DNA from: a virus
Virus record (IMG/VR): IMGVR_UViG_3300017917_000746
Span: 1-57,257 of that record
Direction: 5' to 3' (one strand)
DNA: 57,257 nt
Shown: positions 36,704-47,615 of the stretch, in pieces
Position numbering within the stretch: the stretch's first letter is position 1
Layout of the letters: each line of letters starts with the position of its first letter
The notes under the pieces: model-generated
Databases searched by the model: none
The model's input: only the letters and a program-made list of their open reading frames with translations
What the model was told of the DNA's origin: nothing
Translations under genes and position numbers: made by a program

Positions 36704-37135
36704 ATGAATATTCGCGAACTTTTAAACGCATTAGATTCTATTGTTGAAAACCCTGAAATAGGGGATCAATTTGATATAGAATTTGACGACACTATTATTG
36801 AGTCTACAATCGTCGATGTCACAGTTGACGGAGTTATTGTTCAAGTTGACGAAACTGCTGAACAGTTACTTACATCACTGGGTTGCCAACTAGAAGAAGC
36901 AGAGTACCAAGGACGAAGTGTACCTTTAGGCAAGCCCATGAAGGGCGATGTTAAAAAATCCAAAGTTTATGTAAAAGGCCCTAAAGGCAATGTAGTTAAA
37001 GTAAACTTTGGTGATAAAAAGATGCGTATTAAGAAAAGTATTCCAGGACGACGTAAGAGTTTTAGAGCAAGACATAACTGTGCAAATCCTGGGCCAAGAT
37101 GGAAAGCACGTTATTGGTCGTGCAGGGCATGGTAA
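36704..37135 (+). CDS. Putative capsid-targeted protein with basic Cys/Trp C-terminus
   Basis: 143 residues. The leader MNIRELLNALDSIVE ends in I-V-E, a possible prohead-protease site; the 44994 and 47814 genes start similarly (LQALDSIS, LDKLDNVM). Residues 16-70 are acidic. Residues about 112-143 are a basic motif (GRRKSFRARHNCANPGPRW followed by KARYWSCRAW) with two Cys that recurs in unrelated proteins of aquatic phages and large viruses and is probably a small metal- or DNA-binding unit. Role inferred: packaged with the genome. Confidence 0.72.
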   Translation: MNIRELLNALDSIVENPEIGDQFDIEFDDTIIESTIVDVTVDGVIVQVDETAEQLLTSLGCQLEEAEYQGRSVPLGKPMKGDVKKSKVYVKGPKGNVVKVNFGDKKMRIKKSIPGRRKSFRARHNCANPGPRWKARYWSCRAW

Positions 37136-37139
37136 TATT

Positions 37140-37484
37140 ATGAAAATTAAAGATCTTGACAAACAAGCAGAAAAATTTGAAGACGTTGATTGGATTGACG
37201 ATCTAAAATTTTTTATGCATAACGAACCGCGTTTTTATCGAAAATTTATATATCCAGTAATTTCTGAATTAAAAAATCGATTAGAATCTGGATCCAAATG
37301 CGACGAGATGAGTTTTGCACCTTGTATCGAAAAAGCCATACCAATCTATTGTAACAAATTTAAAATTACACAGAATCCTCAAAAATTATTTGATGATGAA
37401 AAATTACATGACCTTGCTATGAAAATGTTTCATGAAGAAAAATCAAACATTGAAAAGGGCGTGTATAAAGGGAGTGACGAATGA
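37140..37484 (+). CDS. Small helical protein of unknown function
   Basis: 114 residues from ATG 37140; the longer frame from 37008 only overlaps the preceding gene and is rejected. Helical with three Cys (ESGSKCDEMSFAPCIEKAIP, IYCNKF). The start MKIKDLDKQAEKFEDVDW has the Lys-hydrophobic opening of its neighbours but no clear cleavage site. It overlaps the nucleotidyltransferase gene as ATGA. Family not recognised. Confidence 0.65.
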   Translation: MKIKDLDKQAEKFEDVDWIDDLKFFMHNEPRFYRKFIYPVISELKNRLESGSKCDEMSFAPCIEKAIPIYCNKFKITQNPQKLFDDEKLHDLAMKMFHEEKSNIEKGVYKGSDE

Positions 37485-38335
37485 TTTTAGTAGAAGGCGG
37501 AAATGTATTTTCTGACGTAGATCCCTTTTCTAAAGAAGAAGCCAAGGAAGTCTTAGAGAAGGCTCAGGCTATGATGCCCAGCGGCATCGAATTAATCCCT
37601 GTAGGTAGTGCAGGGCATAAAGCCAGTTCAGGCGACATGGATCTAATGGTTGACGAACAGGCTATGCTAGATTATTTTAAAGTTAAGACTGCTAAGGAAG
37701 CCAGACAACGTTTAAAAACTTATTTTCAAGATCGCGGAACTGAATCTGCATTAACAGGTATCAATGTACACATTAAAGTTCCAAACGGAAATAAATTTGC
37801 ACAAGCAGACATCATGTTTGTTAAAGATGCCGGTGCTGTAAGTAAATTTCATCAACATGATTACAGTATTGAAAATACTCCCTATAAAGGATTACACAAA
37901 CATATATTACTTTCTAGTATTGCTAAAGAAACTCGCAATCAAAAATATCCGTATGGTCTCATGTGGAGCGGATTCCAAGGACTGTTTGCTCGAGATGAGA
38001 ACGGAAAAAAGGCAGACTTTGTTTCTAGTAACGCAGACGAAGTTGCTAAAATTTTAATCGGTGCTCAAGCCACTGCCGCAGACTTAGGAAATGTTGAACG
38101 AATTATTGATGCATTACCTGGCAAGGAAAAAAATCCTAAAATACAACATGCTCTATCAGACGAAAATTGGCCTGGCAACGAAGGCAAGAAACCCGAAGAT
38201 GTAAAAGAAGGGTCTTCTGAATGGTTTGCTTGGATGCAAGGTGTTGTAGAAGGAACCTACGGACGCTATTGGTGCAGTACTGATAAGCGTTGGAAAGATC
38301 GTAAAGGCCCTAAGCAGTCAAGGGGCAGTGAATGA
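37481..38335 (+). CDS. Nucleotidyltransferase-fold protein, possible capsid cargo
   Basis: 284 residues. The leader MILVE is very short, ending in L-V-E. The polymerase-beta-type fold shows in VGSAGHKASSGDMDLMVD (helix-turn GS...DxD, near 42-59) and ADIMFV (third Asp, near 108). The C-terminus has SSEWFAWMQGVVEGTYGRYW, then CSTDKRWKDRKG, another short basic Cys/Trp motif like that at the end of the gene at 36704. It could add nucleotides to RNA, DNA or protein; the substrate is unknown. ATGA overlaps on both sides. Confidence 0.75.
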   Translation: MILVEGGNVFSDVDPFSKEEAKEVLEKAQAMMPSGIELIPVGSAGHKASSGDMDLMVDEQAMLDYFKVKTAKEARQRLKTYFQDRGTESALTGINVHIKVPNGNKFAQADIMFVKDAGAVSKFHQHDYSIENTPYKGLHKHILLSSIAKETRNQKYPYGLMWSGFQGLFARDENGKKADFVSSNADEVAKILIGAQATAADLGNVERIIDALPGKEKNPKIQHALSDENWPGNEGKKPEDVKEGSSEWFAWMQGVVEGTYGRYWCSTDKRWKDRKGPKQSRGSE

Positions 38336-39483
38336 GATTAAGAGAACTATTTGTCGAGACTGTTGAAGTAGCAAAAAAGAAACTAGGCCGTGCGTTTAAT
38401 CACTTAGAAGACCTAGTGTTTTTTTACGGCACTGAAGGAACTATCGAAGCATTAGACCATCTTAAAGAAATAGCCACAGAAGAAGGATCAAAGAGTATTC
38501 GTATGAAATGGGACGGCAATCCTCAAATCTATTGGGGCAGAGAAACTGCTAATGGACCGTTGATTCTTTCAGGACATAACGGTTGGTCGCGTGGCGCTAA
38601 AACAGACAATCCAGAAGCAGTAAAAGATTTTATTGCCAATAAAAGTGGTACGCCAAAGACTCCAGAAGAAAAAGCACAGAGAGATGCCTTTGCAGAAAAA
38701 TTTGCTAATTTATATCCAGCGTTTGATGCCGCAACTCCTAAAGACTTTGTAGGATTTGTATATGCTGATGCATTATTCTTAGAAAGACCACAACTAGATA
38801 ATCAAGGAATTTATAATTTTTGCCCTAATCCTAAAAGCAAAACTTGTTATCATGTACGTGCTAGTAGTGAATTAGGCAAACGAATTAGCGGTGCAGATGT
38901 TATGGTGGTAGGTCACGCATACTTTCCAAAATTTGGTATGGACGATAGCGAACAAGAACCATTAGACGATTTTAATCAATTTAACTCAAATCCTAAATTA
39001 ATTGTTCAAGGACCTATCTATAATACAAAACCCGTAAAAATCGATACTAGTAAAATTGACAGTGTTGAACAATATTCTCAACAGCACAGTGCAGAGATAG
39101 ACGGATTCTTATCTGATACTGCGGGCCTAAGTGATCTTAAAAATATCCTGTATACCTATGTAAATCAGACAGCCAAAGCAAGACAGTTGGCCAACTTAGG
39201 TATACAGAATTTTAAAAATTGGTTACAGGCTTCTAAGGTCAGTGCAGGAAAGCAACAAAAAATACAAGAAAAAATGAATGCTCATCCTAATGCTGTTGAA
39301 TCAATGTTTTCTATGGTTAAACAAATACAAGCAGTAAAAAATGATATATTAAAACAAATCGACGGCGAGCAAGGCGATATATGGGACACTAACGGAGAAG
39401 GTCGCGTACGATATGCTGGTACTAATAAAAAGTTTGGTAATATTAAACTAGTGAACAGAGATCTGTGGACTCCCGGAGAATAA
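38332..39483 (+). CDS. DUF6267-like protein with nucleic-acid-ligase motifs, possible capsid cargo
   Basis: 383 residues. Leader MRLRELFVE ends in F-V-E. KWDG at 59-62 fits ligase motif I (KxDG, the AMP-accepting Lys59). GFVYADALF near 140-148 could be motif III. GEGRVRY near 355 and FGNIKLV near 368 fit motifs IV (EGxV) and V (KxV). Together these suggest the covalent nucleotidyltransferase (RNA/DNA ligase) superfamily, though I recall the family only as a domain of unknown function. Three Cys/His residues lie at FCPNPKSKTCYHV. It is coupled to the nucleotidyltransferase upstream by ATGA. Confidence 0.72.
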   Translation: MRLRELFVETVEVAKKKLGRAFNHLEDLVFFYGTEGTIEALDHLKEIATEEGSKSIRMKWDGNPQIYWGRETANGPLILSGHNGWSRGAKTDNPEAVKDFIANKSGTPKTPEEKAQRDAFAEKFANLYPAFDAATPKDFVGFVYADALFLERPQLDNQGIYNFCPNPKSKTCYHVRASSELGKRISGADVMVVGHAYFPKFGMDDSEQEPLDDFNQFNSNPKLIVQGPIYNTKPVKIDTSKIDSVEQYSQQHSAEIDGFLSDTAGLSDLKNILYTYVNQTAKARQLANLGIQNFKNWLQASKVSAGKQQKIQEKMNAHPNAVESMFSMVKQIQAVKNDILKQIDGEQGDIWDTNGEGRVRYAGTNKKFGNIKLVNRDLWTPGE

Positions 39484-39484
39484 A

Positions 39485-40168
39485 ATGAGATTAAGACAAT
39501 TATTTGAACAAAAAATTAATGAAGTGGCTATTATATTTGGACGCTTTAATCCTCCGCACAAGGGTCACAAAGCCGCATGGGAAACTGCGGCTACTAAAGA
39601 TATCTGGTATGTTGGCACAAATCAAAGTACAGTTGGTGCTAAGGATCCTTTGCCTTACGAAGTTAAAGTTGAATGTATGAAAGTTATTTGGCCTGAGGTT
39701 GCTAGTCATATTGTACCGGAAACTAGTTGGCTTACTTTAGCCAGTTATGTTTATCAAGAACACGGTGCCGTAAGATTAATCATCGTTACAGATGAAGCAT
39801 GGGTCGTTCCTACTGTACAAGAATACAACGGTAAATCTGGACCACACGGCGAATATAATTTCCCAGAAATTAGATTATACCACGATAGCATAGAAGAAGC
39901 AAAATTAGAACTACGTAAGAGCAGTGCCACAAGTTTACGAGATGCTGTTTCTAAAGGAGACAGACAAGGATTTAGTGATGCTGCCGGAGTCAGTTCCGAA
40001 ACGCCAGTTATGGGTAAACCATTCTTTGATTTAGTTGCTGAGTATTTGTTACCGTATCAAGAAAAAATTAAAGCCAAAGCAGATAAGGCTAAAAAGAAAG
40101 ATTCAGAAAAGAAAAAAGAAGAACCTAAAAAAGAAAAAGAATCTAAAAAAGAAAAAGAACATGGATGA
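39485..40168 (+). CDS. NadR/NadM-like cytidylyltransferase-fold enzyme, possible capsid cargo
   Basis: 227 residues. Leader MRLRQLFEQKINE offers two sites (L-F-E and I-N-E) before the core strand VAIIFGRFNPPHKGHKAAWE, which holds the HxGH adenylyl-transfer motif. KSSATSLRDAV near 142 is the second signature (usually ISSTxxR). This fold makes NAD from NMN and ATP, or similar nucleotide conjugates. The last 30 residues are a nearly pure Lys/Glu tail (KAKKKDSEKKKEEPKKEKE), unusual for the family. Starts one base after the ligase-like gene. Confidence 0.8.
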   Translation: MRLRQLFEQKINEVAIIFGRFNPPHKGHKAAWETAATKDIWYVGTNQSTVGAKDPLPYEVKVECMKVIWPEVASHIVPETSWLTLASYVYQEHGAVRLIIVTDEAWVVPTVQEYNGKSGPHGEYNFPEIRLYHDSIEEAKLELRKSSATSLRDAVSKGDRQGFSDAAGVSSETPVMGKPFFDLVAEYLLPYQEKIKAKADKAKKKDSEKKKEEPKKEKESKKEKEHG

Positions 40169-40379
40169 ACTAGCTCAAATTAAACGCCTAGCCGGTATTA
40201 CAGAATTTAAAGGTTACCAGCCGTATGGTGGTAGCAATATCAGTATCACTGGTATGGAAAAAAGAGAGTTAGAACGTAAACACAATATTAAACCAGGAAC
40301 AGACGAATGGTTCCAACTATGGTTTAGTAAACCTTACTTAACAGGTGAACCACCGGTAGGAAAAAATGAGAGCAAGTGA
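40161..40379 (+). CDS. Small protein with RLAGI motif
   Basis: 72 residues from ATG 40161, overlapping the preceding gene by 8 bases; the frame further upstream reads only the Lys/Glu tail out of frame. It begins MDELAQIKRLAGITEFKG. The QIKRLAGI element resembles the C-termini of two cargo proteins (LKFLSGL at 44992 and MRQIAGLR at 47612), so it may be a shared scaffold-binding peptide. The rest (ELERKHNIKPGTDEWFQLWF) is a short helical domain of unknown role. Confidence 0.65.
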   Translation: MDELAQIKRLAGITEFKGYQPYGGSNISITGMEKRELERKHNIKPGTDEWFQLWFSKPYLTGEPPVGKNESK

Positions 40380-42213
40380 TTTTATCAACGAAAGACCAAA
40401 ACGTGTCCTAACTATATTTGATATAGACGATACGCTGTTTCACACCACTGCTAAGATTAACGTAGTAAAAGACGGTAAAGTAGTACGCTCTCTAACCAAT
40501 CAAGAATTCAATAACTACGAATTACAAGACGGTGAAGAATACGACTTTGGCGAATTTCGTAATGCTGAAAAATTCCGTCAAGAAAGCGAGCCTATTGGCC
40601 CTATGCTTGACGAGTTAAAAACTATTTTAGATCATACACAGGGCAAAGTTATAATGCTAACTGCTCGTGCAGATTTTGATGACAAAGAAACATTTCTACA
40701 AACGTTTGCCGATCATGGCATAGACATGAGTAAGATTCATGTTCATCGTGCAGGAAACTTGCCCGGGAAAGAAGGCCCTGCTGAAAAGAAAGCAGTATGG
40801 GTTAGACGTTATCTAGACACAGGAAAATTTAATCAAGTAAGTTTATATGACGATTCAATGAGCAACTTACGTGTGTTTAAATCATTGGAGCAAGAATATC
40901 CAGATGTAAAGTTTGATGCATATCATATCACCGGAGAAGGTGATGTTAAATCTTTAGAAGAACGTAAAAAGAAAAAACGCAAATCTAAACGTGTCTATGG
41001 TGCGGCCTGGGGTCCTGGACCTTATGGTTTATATGGATGGGACTCAGGGTACAGCAGTGCAGCCGGAGTATCTTCTGGAGAAGTTGGAGGAGGCGACGGC
41101 GGTGGAATGGAAAGTCGCCTTAATGAAGCATGGACTCAGGATAAACAACAGCGTATTAAAGATTTTGCATTATGGGCTATTAAACTTTTAGAAATAGAAC
41201 AAGCACCAAAGATTAAATTAGTTGCTGATAGTGGCACTACAGCATTGGGGTATTTTGATCCTGAAACACAGAACATTGTTGTTACAGTTAAAGATAGGCA
41301 TCAGATGGACATTATGCGAACACTGGCACACGAACTAGTGCATCGCAAACAAAACGAAGCACGTGAACTTGATGGTGCTACAGGCAGTGATGACGAAAAC
41401 GAAGCCAATGCACTTGCAGGTGTGTTATTACGTTGGTGGGGTAGAAAAAATCCTGAACAATTTAACGAAGCATGGAGCGCAAAATATAAACGTAGTATTA
41501 ACTGTAATAATCCTAAAGGATTCAGTCAACGTGCTCATTGTCAAGGACGTAAAAAAGAAGATATTAACACAGAAACAAATAAGTTAATTCCTTATCCTAA
41601 AGGTACAGTCAAAGTAGATGTAGATGACGTCTATGACTGGTATAAGTTAGGTATGAATATCAGCGATCTAGACGATGCTGATCCTGAAGACTTTGGTAAA
41701 GGTCCTCCACAAACTGTATTATCATTTGGCAGTGAACCTATTGAACACAAATACATGAAGGCACTACAACGTCTAAAAATGAAAACACATGATTTAGATG
41801 AATTTGCTCCTAGCAACGATGACAGTGGCGATGAAGATATGTTGTTCAAGTATGCTAAAATGTGGTACAACAACGATACAGATGTGCAGGAAAAGATTGA
41901 AAAAATATTAGACCAAGAAGGTTGGGAAATAGGCGAAATAGAATCTGAGGAAGGCGGAGTGTTTGTTGTTCAATCTGGAGACGAAAACGGCAATTCATAT
42001 ATTGGCTGGCCAGAGGCAGAATTAACTAATATCGATGAAAACTTTGCTGATGGTCGCAATCCACAAGACAAAGGTGATAGTAAGCGCCATGGCATTACTA
42101 AAGGTATGAGTATTGCACAACTTAAAAAAATTCGCAGTAGCAAAACAGCAAGTCCACGTAAAAAACAATTAGCGCATTGGCAAATTAACATGCGTCAAGG
42201 AAAGAAAAAATGA
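40366..42213 (+). CDS. Multi-domain cargo polyprotein: HAD phosphatase, zincin metallopeptidase, basic modules
   Basis: 615 residues. Leader MRASDFINE is followed directly by a HAD domain (LTIFDIDDTLFHTT; MLTAR motif II; LYDDSMSN motif IV; 12-185). A KKKKRKSKR patch and Gly-rich linker lead to a zincin domain with HELVH (322-326) and ENEANALAG, likely a metallopeptidase. Then come AWSAKYKRSINCNNPKGFSQ (369-388), an acidic domain (about 400-555), and a basic tail (NPQDKGDSKRHGITKGM...). Hydrophobic-x-E occurs at Glu9, Glu254, Glu368 and Glu558, each at a domain boundary, as expected for processing by a gp21-like protease. Confidence 0.8.
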   Translation: MRASDFINERPKRVLTIFDIDDTLFHTTAKINVVKDGKVVRSLTNQEFNNYELQDGEEYDFGEFRNAEKFRQESEPIGPMLDELKTILDHTQGKVIMLTARADFDDKETFLQTFADHGIDMSKIHVHRAGNLPGKEGPAEKKAVWVRRYLDTGKFNQVSLYDDSMSNLRVFKSLEQEYPDVKFDAYHITGEGDVKSLEERKKKKRKSKRVYGAAWGPGPYGLYGWDSGYSSAAGVSSGEVGGGDGGGMESRLNEAWTQDKQQRIKDFALWAIKLLEIEQAPKIKLVADSGTTALGYFDPETQNIVVTVKDRHQMDIMRTLAHELVHRKQNEARELDGATGSDDENEANALAGVLLRWWGRKNPEQFNEAWSAKYKRSINCNNPKGFSQRAHCQGRKKEDINTETNKLIPYPKGTVKVDVDDVYDWYKLGMNISDLDDADPEDFGKGPPQTVLSFGSEPIEHKYMKALQRLKMKTHDLDEFAPSNDDSGDEDMLFKYAKMWYNNDTDVQEKIEKILDQEGWEIGEIESEEGGVFVVQSGDENGNSYIGWPEAELTNIDENFADGRNPQDKGDSKRHGITKGMSIAQLKKIRSSKTASPRKKQLAHWQINMRQGKKK

Positions 42214-42935
42214 AAATAGATGATTTACTAGAAGGTACTATTAACATGATGGAGTTGGCAAAGAAGGCCAAAGCATTATTAGAGCAAGGACTTTCTGAAC
42301 AACAAGCACAAGATAAACTTGTAAAAGATGGTATTCCCGCTAGACTTGCCGCACAAGCAGTACAAATGGCACAGATGCAGGAAACTGTTGCTGATCAACT
42401 TACCGATGGATTTACTCAAGCACATGCTGATGCTAAACGTGCTAAACAAGAAAAACTATCAGCAGAAAAATATGAAAAAAGTCTAGCAGGTCAATATAAA
42501 TTACCCTGTCAGCCTATGGATTCTTATGTAGTAGATTCAACAAACAAACCTATTGTTCGATGCGCGAATCCTAATCATTCGATTGAAGTATCCGTTGCTC
42601 TTAATCAGTATATCTCAAAAGCAAAACGAGTAGACGAAACACCCATCGCCTCTACAGATGATCCTATGGATCCTATGATTCACGGACATGAAAAAGCCAA
42701 CCCTATGCGCCTTAAAGATCGTATTAATCAAACTAGACGTCAACTTAAAGAACTAGCACAGATGGCAGAAAGTGATGATTTTTCTACCTGGATACAAATA
42801 TGTAAATTAGCCAAGGGCGGAATGTTTATGGGTTTAGAACAAAATTTAGAACAAGTAAGACATGGACTAGAAGAACTGGCTAAAAAACGTAGTAAGGGCG
42901 GAGCACAAAGTAGAGGCATTGAAAAATTTGATTAA
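42210..42935 (+). CDS. Helical protein of unknown function, possible capsid cargo
   Basis: 241 residues. Leader MKIDDLLE ends in L-L-E. A helical region with LLEQGLSEQQAQDKLVKDGI resembles a UBA-like or scaffold helix pair; the middle has a Cys pair (LPCQPMDSY, VRCANPNHS) and the end is helical and basic (GLEELAKKRSKGGAQSRGIE). ATGA overlap with the polyprotein gene. No enzymatic motif seen. Confidence 0.68.
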   Translation: MKIDDLLEGTINMMELAKKAKALLEQGLSEQQAQDKLVKDGIPARLAAQAVQMAQMQETVADQLTDGFTQAHADAKRAKQEKLSAEKYEKSLAGQYKLPCQPMDSYVVDSTNKPIVRCANPNHSIEVSVALNQYISKAKRVDETPIASTDDPMDPMIHGHEKANPMRLKDRINQTRRQLKELAQMAESDDFSTWIQICKLAKGGMFMGLEQNLEQVRHGLEELAKKRSKGGAQSRGIEKFD

Positions 42936-42945
42936 CAATAGATCA

Positions 42946-42953
42946 AATAAATA
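42946..42953 (+). promoter_or_regulatory. Late promoter (AATAAATA)
   Basis: AATAAATA, 20 bases before ATG 42974, with AAGGACG as ribosome-binding site. Confidence 0.65.
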
Positions 42954-42973
42954 TTGTTAAGGACGAAAATATT

Positions 42974-43642
42974 ATGAGAATTATAGACATTATTACCGAA
43001 GCCAAGCAGCCACAAGCACCTAAGCCTCGAAACTTTGTTGCTAAGAATGCCAAGACGGGCGGTGCTGGCGCACACAAGGATAAAAAGAAAGCCGAAAAAC
43101 AAGGCGATGTAAAACATAAAGGCAAAGTTGAGATGGACGAATCTTTTGGACGAAGAAGCAGTTATAGTTATAATCCAGACAGAGACGCAGAACGCGAATG
43201 GGACGCGGCTCGACGTGCAGATCAAGACTTTAGAAATCGAGAGCGTAATGCGGGAGACGATGGCGAAGATTACTATCGTCAGCAGATGGACAAAGATCGA
43301 GGTCCTTGGTACATAAAAATTGACGGTAAAATTTACAAGCAAAAAGGCATTCCAAAATCATTTGATTGGAAAAGCGGTGCTAAAAAGTACGGAATGGCTA
43401 TTCTTAAAAATAATCCAGATCTGCAGGGTAAAATTTATATTACTAAAAAAGCAAAAGACGATGCTCCAAACAACATTACAGAAGACCCTAGTGCTAGTAC
43501 AACTAACGCTGGAAATGTAACAATCGGTGCAATCTATAAAAATAAAGCAGGAAAAACTCCTAAAAATAAGGACGGCACTGCTAAAAATGCTCTAGACATG
43601 AAGGGTGTTGGATTGCTTACCGGCGGAAGCATAAAACGATAA
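42974..43642 (+). CDS. Basic modular protein, possible capsid cargo
   Basis: 222 residues. Leader MRIIDIITE ends in I-T-E. Residues about 18-52 (RNFVAKNAKTGGAGAHKDKK, KQGDVKHKGK) form a very basic motif that I recall from many T4-like phage proteins. An Arg/Asp-rich segment with RDAEREWDAARRADQDFRNR follows. A small domain, WYIKIDGKIYKQKGIPKSFD near 115-140, resembles a short beta unit in other phage proteins. Likely DNA-associated inside the head; function unknown. Confidence 0.7.
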   Translation: MRIIDIITEAKQPQAPKPRNFVAKNAKTGGAGAHKDKKKAEKQGDVKHKGKVEMDESFGRRSSYSYNPDRDAEREWDAARRADQDFRNRERNAGDDGEDYYRQQMDKDRGPWYIKIDGKIYKQKGIPKSFDWKSGAKKYGMAILKNNPDLQGKIYITKKAKDDAPNNITEDPSASTTNAGNVTIGAIYKNKAGKTPKNKDGTAKNALDMKGVGLLTGGSIKR

Positions 43643-43645
43643 ATA
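43638..43645 (+). promoter_or_regulatory. Late promoter (GATAAATA) overlapping a stop codon
   Basis: GATAAATA contains the TAA stop of the preceding gene and lies 21 bases before ATG 43667, with AGGAGAT between. Confidence 0.7.
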
Positions 43646-43666
43646 CCATATTAGGAGATTTTAACC

Positions 43667-44992
43667 ATGCACGACGAAATGAGACCAGCGATGCCAGGAC
43701 CCATAGATGACCACGAAGGTTCTATGGCACGTTCTGAGCTTTACAGAGCCGCAAAATATTCAATGAAACTATTTCAAATGATTGAAGACGGACAGGATTT
43801 AGAAGGCTGGGTGCAGGCTAAAATTACTAAATCAGCAGATTATTTAGATTCTGTGTATCATTACATGGAATACCAGGTAAAGTTTGGCGATGGCAGCAAC
43901 GCATCCAACATCGACGATATCACAGGTGATGCTGAACAAGAGCTACCAAGCGATGAACCAGTATCCGATATGGATGACGAGGAAAGGAAAATTGACGAAA
44001 TGACCACATACGAACAAAAATTACAATCATTATTAGAAGGTGCCATTAAAGCATCCGGTGTACGTGCTACAGATAAAAAGAAAGGCAAAGTAGATAAATC
44101 AGAGCGCAAACAATACTTTGTTAAACTTGAAAAAGACAACAAGACTAAAGGTATGACTATTGTTGCAGACGAAGGCGAAAGTCAAGGCGAATTACGCGAT
44201 CGTGTTAAACGTGACAACATTGGTTGGACCGTAGCCAGTATGCGTGTCAAAGACGAAATTGACGAAGCCGCTGAAAAAATTGCCAAGGCAGAAAAAGATG
44301 CTAAGAACAAGAAAGAAAAAGACAAAATGATTAAGGAAGCTCTTACTCAGGTTGTTGAAAAGGCTGTTAGCAAAGCACAACAAAAGTTTATGGGTATGGT
44401 ACACGCCGCTAAGAAAGGCGAGAAGCCAGCAAGTAAAGAAGTTGCTAAAGCCGCTAAAGGTATGAGCAAGAAGTCTGCCGAAGACTTTGCTAGTACAAAA
44501 CACAAAGGTCTTCCAGAGAAGAAAAAGAAAACTGACGAAGCACAGGTAATGAGCCCACCGGATGGTGCAACTGCTCCTCCGCCAAAAGATCCAAAGACTG
44601 GCAAGTATCCTAAAGTAACTTCTGGTCCTAACAAAGGTAAAGAGTGGAGTGAAAAGACTCCAGGTCCTACAAATCCAGCAATGAAGGAAGGTAGCAAGCC
44701 AGACTTTTTAGACATGGACAAAGATGGTGACAAGAAAGAACCAATGAAAAAAGCAGTTTCCGACAAAAAGAAAGGTGCTGTTAAAGAAGATCAAGATTTA
44801 GTTAAAAGCATTGTTAGAAAAGTTGTTGCTGAAAAGAAAGCAGGCAAAGGTAAGCCAGATTTTTTAGATATGGATAAGGATGGCAACAAAAAAGAAACAA
44901 TGAAACAAGCAATTAAAGATAAAGAAACAAAGAAAGAAACTGTTAAAGAGTCTGCTGATTTATCTCGCTTGAAATTCTTATCAGGACTATAA
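43667..44992 (+). CDS. Lys-rich modular protein with two DxDxDG repeats
   Basis: 441 residues. The N-terminal domain (MARSELYRAAKYSMKLFQMI, EGWVQAKITKSADYLDSVYH) is a helical unit that I recall from related phage proteins. After MTTYEQKLQSLLE, a possible internal hydrophobic-x-E site, come basic coiled regions (KIAKAEKDAKNKKEKDKMIK). KPDFLDMDKDGDKKEPMKKA (about 345-364) and KPDFLDMDKDGNKKETMKQA (about 395-414) are near-identical EF-hand-like or dockerin-like loops. It ends LSRLKFLSGL. It has no obvious N-terminal targeting leader. Probably an internal head or DNA-compaction protein. Confidence 0.7.
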   Translation: MHDEMRPAMPGPIDDHEGSMARSELYRAAKYSMKLFQMIEDGQDLEGWVQAKITKSADYLDSVYHYMEYQVKFGDGSNASNIDDITGDAEQELPSDEPVSDMDDEERKIDEMTTYEQKLQSLLEGAIKASGVRATDKKKGKVDKSERKQYFVKLEKDNKTKGMTIVADEGESQGELRDRVKRDNIGWTVASMRVKDEIDEAAEKIAKAEKDAKNKKEKDKMIKEALTQVVEKAVSKAQQKFMGMVHAAKKGEKPASKEVAKAAKGMSKKSAEDFASTKHKGLPEKKKKTDEAQVMSPPDGATAPPPKDPKTGKYPKVTSGPNKGKEWSEKTPGPTNPAMKEGSKPDFLDMDKDGDKKEPMKKAVSDKKKGAVKEDQDLVKSIVRKVVAEKKAGKGKPDFLDMDKDGNKKETMKQAIKDKETKKETVKESADLSRLKFLSGL

Positions 44993-44993
44993 T

Positions 44994-45563
44994 ATGGATC
45001 TTAGACAAATTCTACAGGCGTTAGACAGCATTTCTACAAAACCTGTAGAAAATGTCGTAGCGGAAGAACAAGTTCCGCCAATGCCCGATGTAAGTGATCT
45101 ACAACCTGGAACTTCAAAAGACGGAGAAGAAGGATCTAGAATTACTAAAAATGCAGACGGCACCGTATCATATGCAGGAGCATGGGGCACTTATGTTTAT
45201 AATGCACAAGGACAACATGTTAAAACTGTAAGTCCTACTTTTGCTGGATACTCACAAACATCTGATCCTACAGGTAAAGTAACTCAACAAACATACAATC
45301 AAGGACCTCTAAATGTTAAACGAGGACCAGAAGGCGATGAAGTTGAATACGATCTTGGAACTACTACCCTAAGTGCAAAAGGACCTACTGGTGCTAAACC
45401 AACACAAGTGGCTGTTAGAGAAATGGGGTTTAAAGATTACTTGCAACAAATTGAAGAAGGGCTAAAGGATCCTAAAGATAATCCATGTTGGAAGGGTTAC
45501 AAGCCAGTTGGTACTAAAAAGAAAGGTGGCCGCACAGTTCCTAACTGTGTACCAAAAGAATAA
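44994..45563 (+). CDS. Possible capsid cargo protein with NPCWKGY basic C-terminus
   Basis: 189 residues starting one base after the previous stop. The leader MDLRQILQALDSIS parallels the 36704 and 47814 starts, though the nearest cleavage-like site (VVAEE) is less typical. The middle carries two short beta repeats (ADGTVSYAGAWGTYVYN, GEVEYDLGTTT-like). The C-terminus, after QQIEE, is GLKDPKDNPCWKGYKPVGTK and KKGGRTVPNCVPK, a two-Cys basic motif shared by aquatic phage proteins. It overlaps the lipoprotein gene as TAATG. Confidence 0.68.
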   Translation: MDLRQILQALDSISTKPVENVVAEEQVPPMPDVSDLQPGTSKDGEEGSRITKNADGTVSYAGAWGTYVYNAQGQHVKTVSPTFAGYSQTSDPTGKVTQQTYNQGPLNVKRGPEGDEVEYDLGTTTLSAKGPTGAKPTQVAVREMGFKDYLQQIEEGLKDPKDNPCWKGYKPVGTKKKGGRTVPNCVPKE

Positions 45564-45949
45564 TGCGAGCCCTTGTCTTAGCACTAGCACTAACATTAAC
45601 AGGTTGCGCTACTGTTAAGGAATGGGTTCCTAGTTTCAGTGATCCTAATCAATCCGCACGTATTATCGATGTGCGTCAAAGTGTTCAGCAATTAGATTGC
45701 AAACAAACACATGCTCCCCAGGTTAAGCGCATCAAAGACAATTTAGATTGGTTTCAACTTTACAGCGACAGCAAAGGTTGGAGACAGAACGATGTTCTTA
45801 AGTTAATTAAACCTATGCAAGAAACCGTCGACGATTTTTATAAACGTAGCAACGAAAAACAGGGTAGCGAAACCTACTGCGAAATTAAAAAGAAATTAAT
45901 GACTACCCAATCTGAAAAAGCCGCTAGTGCTATATTGGGGAGATTCTAA
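45563..45949 (+). CDS. Small lipoprotein
   Basis: 128 residues. Signal peptide MRALVLALALTLTGC with lipobox Cys15, then a soluble helical region with two further Cys (LDCKQTHAPQVKRIKDNLDW, SETYCEIKKKL). It is anchored in the host envelope after late expression, so unlike its neighbours it cannot be a head protein. A role in superinfection exclusion or lysis is possible but unproven. TAATG overlap upstream; the last base is shared with the next ATG. Confidence 0.72.
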   Translation: MRALVLALALTLTGCATVKEWVPSFSDPNQSARIIDVRQSVQQLDCKQTHAPQVKRIKDNLDWFQLYSDSKGWRQNDVLKLIKPMQETVDDFYKRSNEKQGSETYCEIKKKLMTTQSEKAASAILGRF

Positions 45950-46182
45950 TGATTGAACAGTTACAACAGTTAACGCAGTGCGGTCGTCCTTGGGCTTCCG
46001 ATAGAGCTACAATGGCTTTACAGATGTGCGAAGCCTTTCAACAAGGACAGATCAGCAACGATGAATTTAAAGAATTAATGTTAGATCTAGTTAGAACAGA
46101 TAAATTAGACAGTGAAGCCGATGACATAAATTTAAAAACTATGTTAGTAACGGCAGTATACGCAGTAGCACAGGTGGCCTAA
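45949..46182 (+). CDS. Small helical protein of unknown function
   Basis: 77 residues, helical (ASDRATMALQMCEAFQQGQI, NDEFKELMLDLVRTDKLDSE). It begins on the last base of the lipoprotein stop and ends one base before the Dps gene, so it is co-expressed with both. Family not recognised. Confidence 0.65.
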   Translation: MIEQLQQLTQCGRPWASDRATMALQMCEAFQQGQISNDEFKELMLDLVRTDKLDSEADDINLKTMLVTAVYAVAQVA

Positions 46183-46617
46183 ATGGAAGAACTTAGTAAA
46201 GCACTTAAAATAGCATTTGCCAGTGAATTTAGTTTTTATCTAAAAGCTCATTATTTTCATTGGAACGTTGAAGGAATAAATTTTCAGCAATTTCACGAAC
46301 TGTTTGGTGGTATCTACGAAGAAGTCTATGACAGTATAGATGACTTTGCAGAAAACATTCGTAAGACTGGCAGTTATACTCCTGGAAGTTTTGAACGTTT
46401 TACTATGTTGTCAAAGATTGACGATGAAACAGAAATTCCTAATGCAGAAACAATGGCACAGATCCTGTTAGAAGATTCTGATAAAATGGCTGAGATTTTT
46501 AGAATGGTTTTTGCTATTTCTGAAAAATATGGTGAGCACGGACTTAGCGATTTTATTGCAGGTCGTCAAGATGCACATCGCAAACATTCATGGATGCTAA
46601 GGGCTACATTAAAATGA
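46183..46617 (+). CDS. dps: Dps/ferritin-like iron-binding protein
   Basis: 144 residues, four-helix Dps family. The ferroxidase ligands are all present with exact spacing: His26, His38, Asp53 and Glu57 match E. coli Dps His51, His63, Asp78 and Glu82 (12, 15 and 4 residues apart), in YFHWNVEGINFQQFHELFGG and SIDDFAENI. Dps oxidises and stores iron and protects DNA from Fenton damage. The Lys-rich N-terminal DNA-binding tail of E. coli Dps is absent. It lies in the late block among cargo proteins, with no targeting leader of its own. Confidence 0.9.
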   Translation: MEELSKALKIAFASEFSFYLKAHYFHWNVEGINFQQFHELFGGIYEEVYDSIDDFAENIRKTGSYTPGSFERFTMLSKIDDETEIPNAETMAQILLEDSDKMAEIFRMVFAISEKYGEHGLSDFIAGRQDAHRKHSWMLRATLK

Positions 46618-46769
46618 AAGATATAACCTTAGCAGACTATATTAAAAGAACTACAGAAGAATTAAAAAAAGATTTATTGGATTCGACACAGGCCGAGGAA
46701 AAATACCTAGTCTATCCAGAACAACACGGTGAGGAAGATCGGCCAGTAAACCCATACGGAGAACATTAA
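46614..46769 (+). CDS. 51-residue protein of unknown function
   Basis: Starts in an ATGA overlap with dps and ends directly before ATG 46770. The sequence MKDITLADYIKRTTEELKKD, then QAEEKYLVYPEQHGEEDRPV, is acidic and helical. The tight overlap on both sides supports it as a real gene. No family recognised. Confidence 0.6.
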   Translation: MKDITLADYIKRTTEELKKDLLDSTQAEEKYLVYPEQHGEEDRPVNPYGEH

Positions 46770-47615
46770 ATGAAAATTTCAGATATATTAATCAACGAGG
46801 CACCGGCCGCAACAGGTAAAGTTCCTCCTCAACCAACATTAAAGGGCAAACCATCTACTGGTCCAAAAGGTCAAGCATGGTTGAAAAAATACGGTGCTAC
46901 TCATAATCCAGACGGCACACCAAAGTCAGCGCCTGCACCGGCACAGGTAGCACCACAACAGGGCAATGGGCTCACGGGTCAAAATGCTCCCGGAGTTGCC
47001 CCGGAAGTAGGTGTAGCACAGGCATCCAGCAACACCACTCCAGATCCTGTTCCAGCACAAGAACCAACACCGGCACCTGCTCCAGCACCTACTACACCCC
47101 CACCACAGGCAAATCCACTAGGAGTACAAGCACAGGCTGGCGGTGCGTTTGGACAACAAACTCCACAGGCGGATGTTAGTCGCGCACCAACTGAGCCAGC
47201 ACCTGCTCCTGCAGAACCTGCTCCGGCATCTGCTCCTGCAACAAAACAAGCACCTCCAGGACTATCCAGTGCAACAACAGCCCAAGGTTCTTCGGCACCA
47301 ACTGGACCAACAGCCCAAGCCAATCCTGACGGAACTGGTATTGGTGCTAATGCTCAGGTCAATCCAGATACTAATTTAAGCACACAGGCTAAACCAGTTA
47401 CAACTGCCTCAGGGGCGAAAACTAATATAACTACTGCGTCTGACGACGAGTTGGCTTGGAGATCTAAACAAACCGGGATGGTAAATTTCAGTGCGTATCC
47501 AGGGCCCGGTAAATGGGATCCAAAAACTGGACGTACAAAACGTGAAAGCATCGAATATCACGAAAGAGACAATCAGTTATTACAACGTATGCGTCAAATT
47601 GCTGGTTTGAGATGA
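46770..47615 (+). CDS. Pro/Ala/Gln-rich protein, possible capsid cargo
   Basis: 281 residues. Leader MKISDILINE ends in I-N-E, very like the T4 internal-protein leader. GPKGQAWLKKYGATHNPDGT near 31-50 is a motif repeated in other phage cargo. Residues about 55-225 are disordered, with PAPAPTTPPPQAN and similar runs. The end has SGAKTNITTASDDELAWRSK, then RERDNQ-like helix and MRQIAGLR. Intrinsically disordered proteins can be threaded through a tail tube. No catalytic motif. Confidence 0.7.
   Translation: MKISDILINEAPAATGKVPPQPTLKGKPSTGPKGQAWLKKYGATHNPDGTPKSAPAPAQVAPQQGNGLTGQNAPGVAPEVGVAQASSNTTPDPVPAQEPTPAPAPAPTTPPPQANPLGVQAQAGGAFGQQTPQADVSRAPTEPAPAPAEPAPASAPATKQAPPGLSSATTAQGSSAPTGPTAQANPDGTGIGANAQVNPDTNLSTQAKPVTTASGAKTNITTASDDELAWRSKQTGMVNFSAYPGPGKWDPKTGRTKRESIEYHERDNQLLQRMRQIAGLR

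Follow-up and report, generated by a model that had tools for sequence, protein, structure and literature searches.

The 57,257-nt IMG/VR virus fragment analyzed here (the window) contains, at 40366-42213, an ORF of 615 aa that we regard, with a probability of roughly three in four, as a head-packaged, protease-jointed modular polyprotein of the prohead interior. Packaging of this protein is supported through its homologues, and we infer its cleavage at the joints, the retention of its parts in the head and their ejection with the DNA. In the proposed scheme, a T4-like N-terminal leader would bring the entire chain into the core of the prohead. There, a prohead protease of the gp21 type (S77) would, while maturing the capsid, cut after the Glu of hydrophobic-x-Glu joints, most confidently at Glu254, Glu368 and Glu558, probably at Glu199 and Glu479, and optionally at Glu9. 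The freed HAD phosphatase, zincin and small basic modules would then remain in the head and leave with the DNA. At the level of sequence, the modularity, the conserved joint, the leader and, in relatives, the protease with a matching capsid site can be taken as demonstrated.

Judged by profile and fold matches, several unrelated enzymatic domains are joined in one chain, a HAD phosphatase and a zincin together with small modules, in the following layout.

40366..40392, + strand: leader MRASDFINE, residues 1-9, resembling T4 capsid-targeting sequences
40393..40962, + strand: HAD phosphatase domain, residues 10-199, with DIDDT, MLTAR, KKA and YDDS, ending SLEE
40963..41127, + strand: basic Gly/Tyr-rich linker module, residues 200-254, pI 9.8, ending RLNE
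41128..41469, + strand: zincin-like metallopeptidase domain, residues 255-368, with HELVH and a downstream ENEAN, ending QFNE
41470..41565, + strand: Cys module AWSAKYKRSINC..GFSQRAHCQGRKK, residues 369-400, pI 10
41566..41802, + strand: acidic DVYDWYKLG domain, residues 401-479, ending DLDE, mobile in homologues
41803..42039, + strand: acidic domain, residues 480-558, ending NIDE, separately mobile in homologues
42040..42210, + strand: basic C-terminal (tail) module NFADGRNPQDKGDSKRHG..., residues 559-615, pI 11.5, net charge +13

Modeling with AlphaFold2 (11 sequences) gave folded units at residues 10-198, at 255-366 and in the tail, separated by low-confidence stretches at 199-253, 368-414 and 477-565; because the overall pLDDT was 59, only the well-scored domains were used. 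The HAD model matched the T4 Pnkp 3'-phosphatase (Z 12.6, rmsd 2.9, 134 aligned residues), and a profile match linked the same domain to PHROG_415 polynucleotide kinase (E 5e-6). For the zincin domain, weak matches to PHROG_87 metallo-protease and DUF6782 were obtained, along with Foldseek matches of marginal E-value to abylysin, jannalysin, selecase and Wss1. The tail module is predicted to form a three-helix fold (pLDDT 77), for which a fold search with the module alone returned no significant match, and a Pfam search with the 615-aa protein yielded sub-threshold matches only. The HAD and zincin identities are thus predicted at the level of fold, where the models resemble the T4 Pnkp 3'-phosphatase and minimal gluzincins (abylysin, jannalysin, selecase) at low sequence identity. 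If all six edge sites were cut, the pieces following the leader would have calculated masses of about 22, 6, 13, 13, 9 and 6.5 kDa.

An earlier note, made from the sequence alone, had singled out FINE (Glu9), RLNE (Glu254), QFNE (Glu368) and NIDE (Glu558) as sites of a prohead protease at every domain boundary. All are present, as are the HELVH motif (322-326), the Cys motif and the basic tail that it listed. However, they are four of the 12 hydrophobic-x-Glu sites in the protein, the others being Glu63, Glu83, Glu199, Glu276, Glu479, Glu509, Glu524 and Glu550, and 12 is no excess over the 13.9 expected from shuffling. With the count at chance and four of 12 sites picked, homologues were needed for a test. 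The narrower form [FLI]NE is enriched in a post hoc comparison (3 vs 0.4, p about 0.006). The probability that 12 randomly placed sites would coincide with module edges at 254, 368 and 558 alike is about 1e-5, for edges drawn with the sites in view rather than blind. Two sites overlooked by the earlier note also lie at domain edges, Glu199 where the HAD fold ends and Glu479 at the end of another domain, so that the sites allow up to six products plus the leader instead of the four proposed. Glu83, Glu276 and Glu509 fall within predicted helices and Glu63 inside the HAD fold; therefore, a cleaving protease must ignore several sites located in folded domains. The Ala-Trp dipeptide that follows both Glu254 and Glu368 does occur as noted, yet it is incidental and without signal value, because the Trp is part of each module and the first residue of the Cys module varies across contexts (K, G, E, A, D or S).

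An IMG/VR scan for homologues yielded 78 loci, whose ORFs were compared for module order. There, the order and combination of the HAD, zincin, Cys, DVYDWY and tail units change from ORF to ORF, and they may stand alone or beside further units; on this sequence comparison, the 615-aa protein is a mosaic built from mobile modules. The linker module, for example, stands directly after the leader in L003 and after a different N-terminal HAD-like domain in L007. The boundary claim of the earlier note holds for 254, 368 and 558, which are module starts in homologues; the site at residue 9 is not kept in the closest HAD orthologues. The degree of conservation also differs among the sites. QFNE (368) persists while the module that follows is exchanged, being either the Cys module or a HIVKVKGGY module, whereas site 254 is retained among close relatives only (RLNE, QINE, IINE, SINE and GLME). 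Zincins at protein starts follow leaders both with and without Glu. The Glu479 site is present in 4 of 15 homologues; in L014 its equivalent runs directly into the tail module (THDIDE/NFADG), and in L022 the acidic domain corresponding to residues 480-558 ends in PQELTE ahead of a Cys module. Separately, in L014, L017 and L019 a lysozyme- or chitinase-like domain, recognized by eye from the sequence, occupies the zincin position of the same polyprotein architecture. The HAD-like domain at the N-terminus of L007 (5401-7146) is followed by a retained joint, VDE/GRKKK.

The joint was quantified before the tail and Cys modules, for which alignment-based scans followed by ORF profile searches provided 72 non-redundant contexts each. 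Glu occupies position -1 of the tail module in 71 of 71 unrelated contexts, the 72nd copy beginning at a contig end, and a hydrophobic residue occupies -3 in 57 of the 71 (80%). For the Cys module, Glu is found at -1 in 60 of 62 contexts and a hydrophobic residue at -3 in 86%, with 10 start-Met copies set aside; the remaining upstream positions are near background for both modules. Because no tail module lacked Glu in these contexts, this residue could belong to the module itself. Such invariance would suit a chain that stays uncut, packaged or not, in which hydrophobic-x-Glu travels with each module as a structural cap or linker preference. Nevertheless, 10 of the 72 Cys modules lie directly after the start Met without Glu, which is thus dispensable for the Cys module itself, and in 19 of 23 homologues a hydrophobic-x-Glu site closes the HAD fold (the Glu199 position). 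Several unrelated modules are preceded, at variable spacing, by a joint of the same two-position form, and this form coincides with the known specificity of gp21. An uncut chain is therefore considered unlikely, and processing by a prohead protease is preferred.

Other modules of these phages follow the same pattern. A joint lies just upstream in 15 of 15 DWxKVN, 11 of 12 KPDFLD, 11 of 11 AEYQGR, 16 of 25 KDACY, 17 of 27 CWKGY and 6 of 7 AAWQRK contexts. These frequencies are mostly far above those in control windows, with variable spacing, and the contrast is weak for AEYQGR because its upstream region is acidic and the control windows score high too. In proteins of four or five units, the joint precedes most units. 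We also searched for the joint at BLAST homology breakpoints in 3,156 genes, using a window of four residues and excluding tail and Cys module starts. Hydrophobic-x-Glu was enriched 1.84-fold (295 vs 160), whereas the 14 other hydrophobic-x-residue motifs ranged from 0.75 to 1.18, without enrichment, and non-hydrophobic-x-Glu reached 1.16. The subset intended as a control, from which known modules had been removed, was likewise enriched (1.69-fold); it still held module proteins, for instance with KQDACY, and this contamination by packaged-like proteins makes it unusable as a control. The comparison shows, at the sequence level, that joints mark homology breakpoints in these phages, and it does not single out packaged proteins. 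The feature described in the earlier note is accordingly not special to the 615-aa protein; it is a trait of a large protein class. With the joint serving as a universal connector, modules could be freely recombined provided that each brings or meets a site.

The leader provides the proposed route into the head. In T4, a capsid-targeting sequence (CTS) directs proteins into the head, and the N-terminal 10 residues of IPIII are sufficient for head incorporation (PMC9026906). The leader form M[KR]..[ED]hh.E opens 33 of 170 genes with a tail or Cys module against 94 of 2796 others (Fisher p 2e-14), and modules near protein starts follow leaders such as MRAREFVTE, MRAGEFITE and MKINEIITE. Short genes consisting of a leader and a module also occur: MKSFKQFQE/SWSNKYK (Bellamy_122), MRINELFE/NFADG and MKIKEIVVE/KWS. 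The Glu9 site itself is not maintained, as the closest three HAD orthologues read FIKD, FVKD and FVKK. In T4, a protein with Asp at P1 of this site is targeted yet unprocessed (PMC9026906); since targeting in T4 thus persists without processing, the Glu9 site may be optional. Genes such as Bellamy_122 would also be expected if the internal sites were fusion scars, that is, worn remnants of the capsid-targeting leaders of once-separate genes, with no present role. Internal joints keep P3 and P1 alone and have lost the M[KR]... half, which points to selection on a cleavage site, so that we find the scar explanation extremely improbable beside a joint that is cut.

A further peptide was observed in the same setting. 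The C-terminal I[KR]RLAGL of the gp22-like scaffold of relatives (L241-L256) reappears in ORFs of the window, at the C-termini of ORF 43667 (43667-44992; LSRLKFLSGL) and ORF 46770 (46770-47615; MRQIAGLR) and at the N-terminus of ORF 40161 (40161-40379; MDELAQIKRLAGITE). It is perhaps a second prohead-core targeting peptide. A different N-terminal leader, M[ND][IL]R[EQS][LI]L..LD, is common to ORFs 36704, 44994 and 47814.

Relatives with the gp23 capsid protein also encode the protease. Among 23 long relative contigs, gp23 was found on 13, the identical 13 carry an S77 (gp21-type) protease, and orthologues of the 615-aa protein sit on some of them; the 57-kb fragment holding the 615-aa protein gave no gp21 match. 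When the gp23 N-termini of relatives were lined up by eye, L-x-E (V-x-E once) stood opposite the T4 cut position, which we take to be FLTE. T4 gp21 cleaves after L/I-X-E (PMC9026906), and the hydrophobic-x-Glu conserved before the tail, Cys and other modules matches this substrate rule. That correspondence bears on a different model, in which the protein is a polyvalent conflict effector that its own zincin processes, either in the producing cell or in one newly infected, and in which the joints are no sites of the prohead protease. Iyer et al. (2017) described proteins from phages and plasmids with 2-15 domains, the zincin being the commonest, and proposed autoprocessing (PMC5512222), and the HExxH motif of the 615-aa protein is intact. 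In contrast, the same joint occurs in proteins with no detected zincin (Bellamy_122, S-CREM2 gp160 and many tail-module proteins) and matches the capsid-protein site of relatives, making self-processing by the zincin very unlikely.

The proposal of packaging in the head gains from cultured phages. The KDACY module was found in 366 phage records, mostly of cultured cyanophages, and the Cys module in 17; the KDACY genes among the matches listed are annotated solely as hypothetical protein. Module genes lie between the terminase genes in S-SM2 and Bellamy, and adjoin gp23 in P-TIM68. S-CREM2 gp160 consists of three modules with the joints LSE, LEE and ISE, and the leader of gp154, a cytidylyltransferase, is MKNFSSFLTE. 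The joint glutamates of gp160 are E127, E218 and E252, with ARDGK, KKNCWPGYEK and GKKDACYHK respectively behind them, and the leader of gp154 ends at E10, ahead of ADEKQQ; in Bellamy, joints fall at E9 of Bellamy_122 and at E144, E351 and E403 of Bellamy_123. The virion proteome of S-CREM2 lists gp154, gp155, gp156 and gp160, the last at 13.1% coverage from 7 unique peptides (PMC10665884 Table 3). Its authors considered carry-over possible for regulatory proteins in the virion-detected set, and peptides are reported per ORF (PMC10665884). These virion data support packaging of the module-protein class, not cleavage. Taken with the joints of the homologues, the leader and the protease and capsid site of relatives, they support the core idea of the earlier note, several head-packaged products from one gene with prohead-protease joints; its product count and N-terminal site are set aside.

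Three known kinds of protein come closest. The T4 internal head proteins (IPI-III, Alt) resemble the 615-aa protein in a leader of about 10 residues with hydrophobic-x-Glu at its end, where the closest HAD orthologues have Asp or Lys for the Glu, and also in small basic units, L/I-X-E joints, a gp21-type protease (present here in relatives) and packaged homologues. However, they have a single cut close to the N-terminus, and Alt has a C-terminal one as well, whereas proteins of the 615-aa class are chains of units with joints between them, and these units are shuffled among many genes, unlike the T4 internal proteins. Polyvalent proteins, as described in the available text of PMC5512222, likewise place unrelated enzyme domains, zincin included, in one packaged or injected polypeptide; the joints found here differ in matching the prohead protease and in occurring without a zincin, and the short basic modules do not appear in that text. 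Ejected head proteins of the giant phages phiKZ and SPN3US are similarly cut after x-Glu, some at several places, yet cleavage there takes off N-terminal propeptides and, in the protease itself, the tail, and the accessible portions of the two reports describe no chain of retained modules (PMC10052503, PMC5694885). A literature search on polyproteins and prohead protease, most subscription journals lying outside its scope, found no description, and a search for DUF6321, DUF3008, DUF6267 and the KVKSRYKV string found nothing. Chains of retained modules with prohead-protease joints are therefore provisionally regarded as new, as far as the consulted parts of these sources extend.

More broadly, we lean slightly toward the view that aquatic T4-like phages share a cassette grammar, in which many small basic modules and enzymes, each behind a prohead-protease joint, are shuffled among packaged polyproteins and capsid maturation releases a mixture of internal proteins in fixed ratios from few genes, the joint making the shuffling tolerable. 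If the joints are cut, many hypothetical genes of these phages would encode head-packaged and probably injected proteins, and the arrangement would be a natural counterpart to engineered T4 packaging-and-processing fusions.

Finally, the 615-aa ORF lies in the following cluster:

36704..47615, + strand: gene cluster with many of the same leaders and modules

It includes ORFs 36704, 38332, 39485, 40161, 42210, 42974, 43667, 44994 and 46770, and its content resembles S-CREM2 gp154-gp160, with a cytidylyltransferase and a module protein. At 37481-40168, a nucleotidyltransferase-like ORF, a DUF6267 ORF with a KWDGN (KxDG-like) motif and a cytidylyltransferase-like ORF adjoin the Pnkp-phosphatase-like HAD. 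Together with the HAD, these ORFs possibly form a packaged nucleic-acid repair or NAD set.
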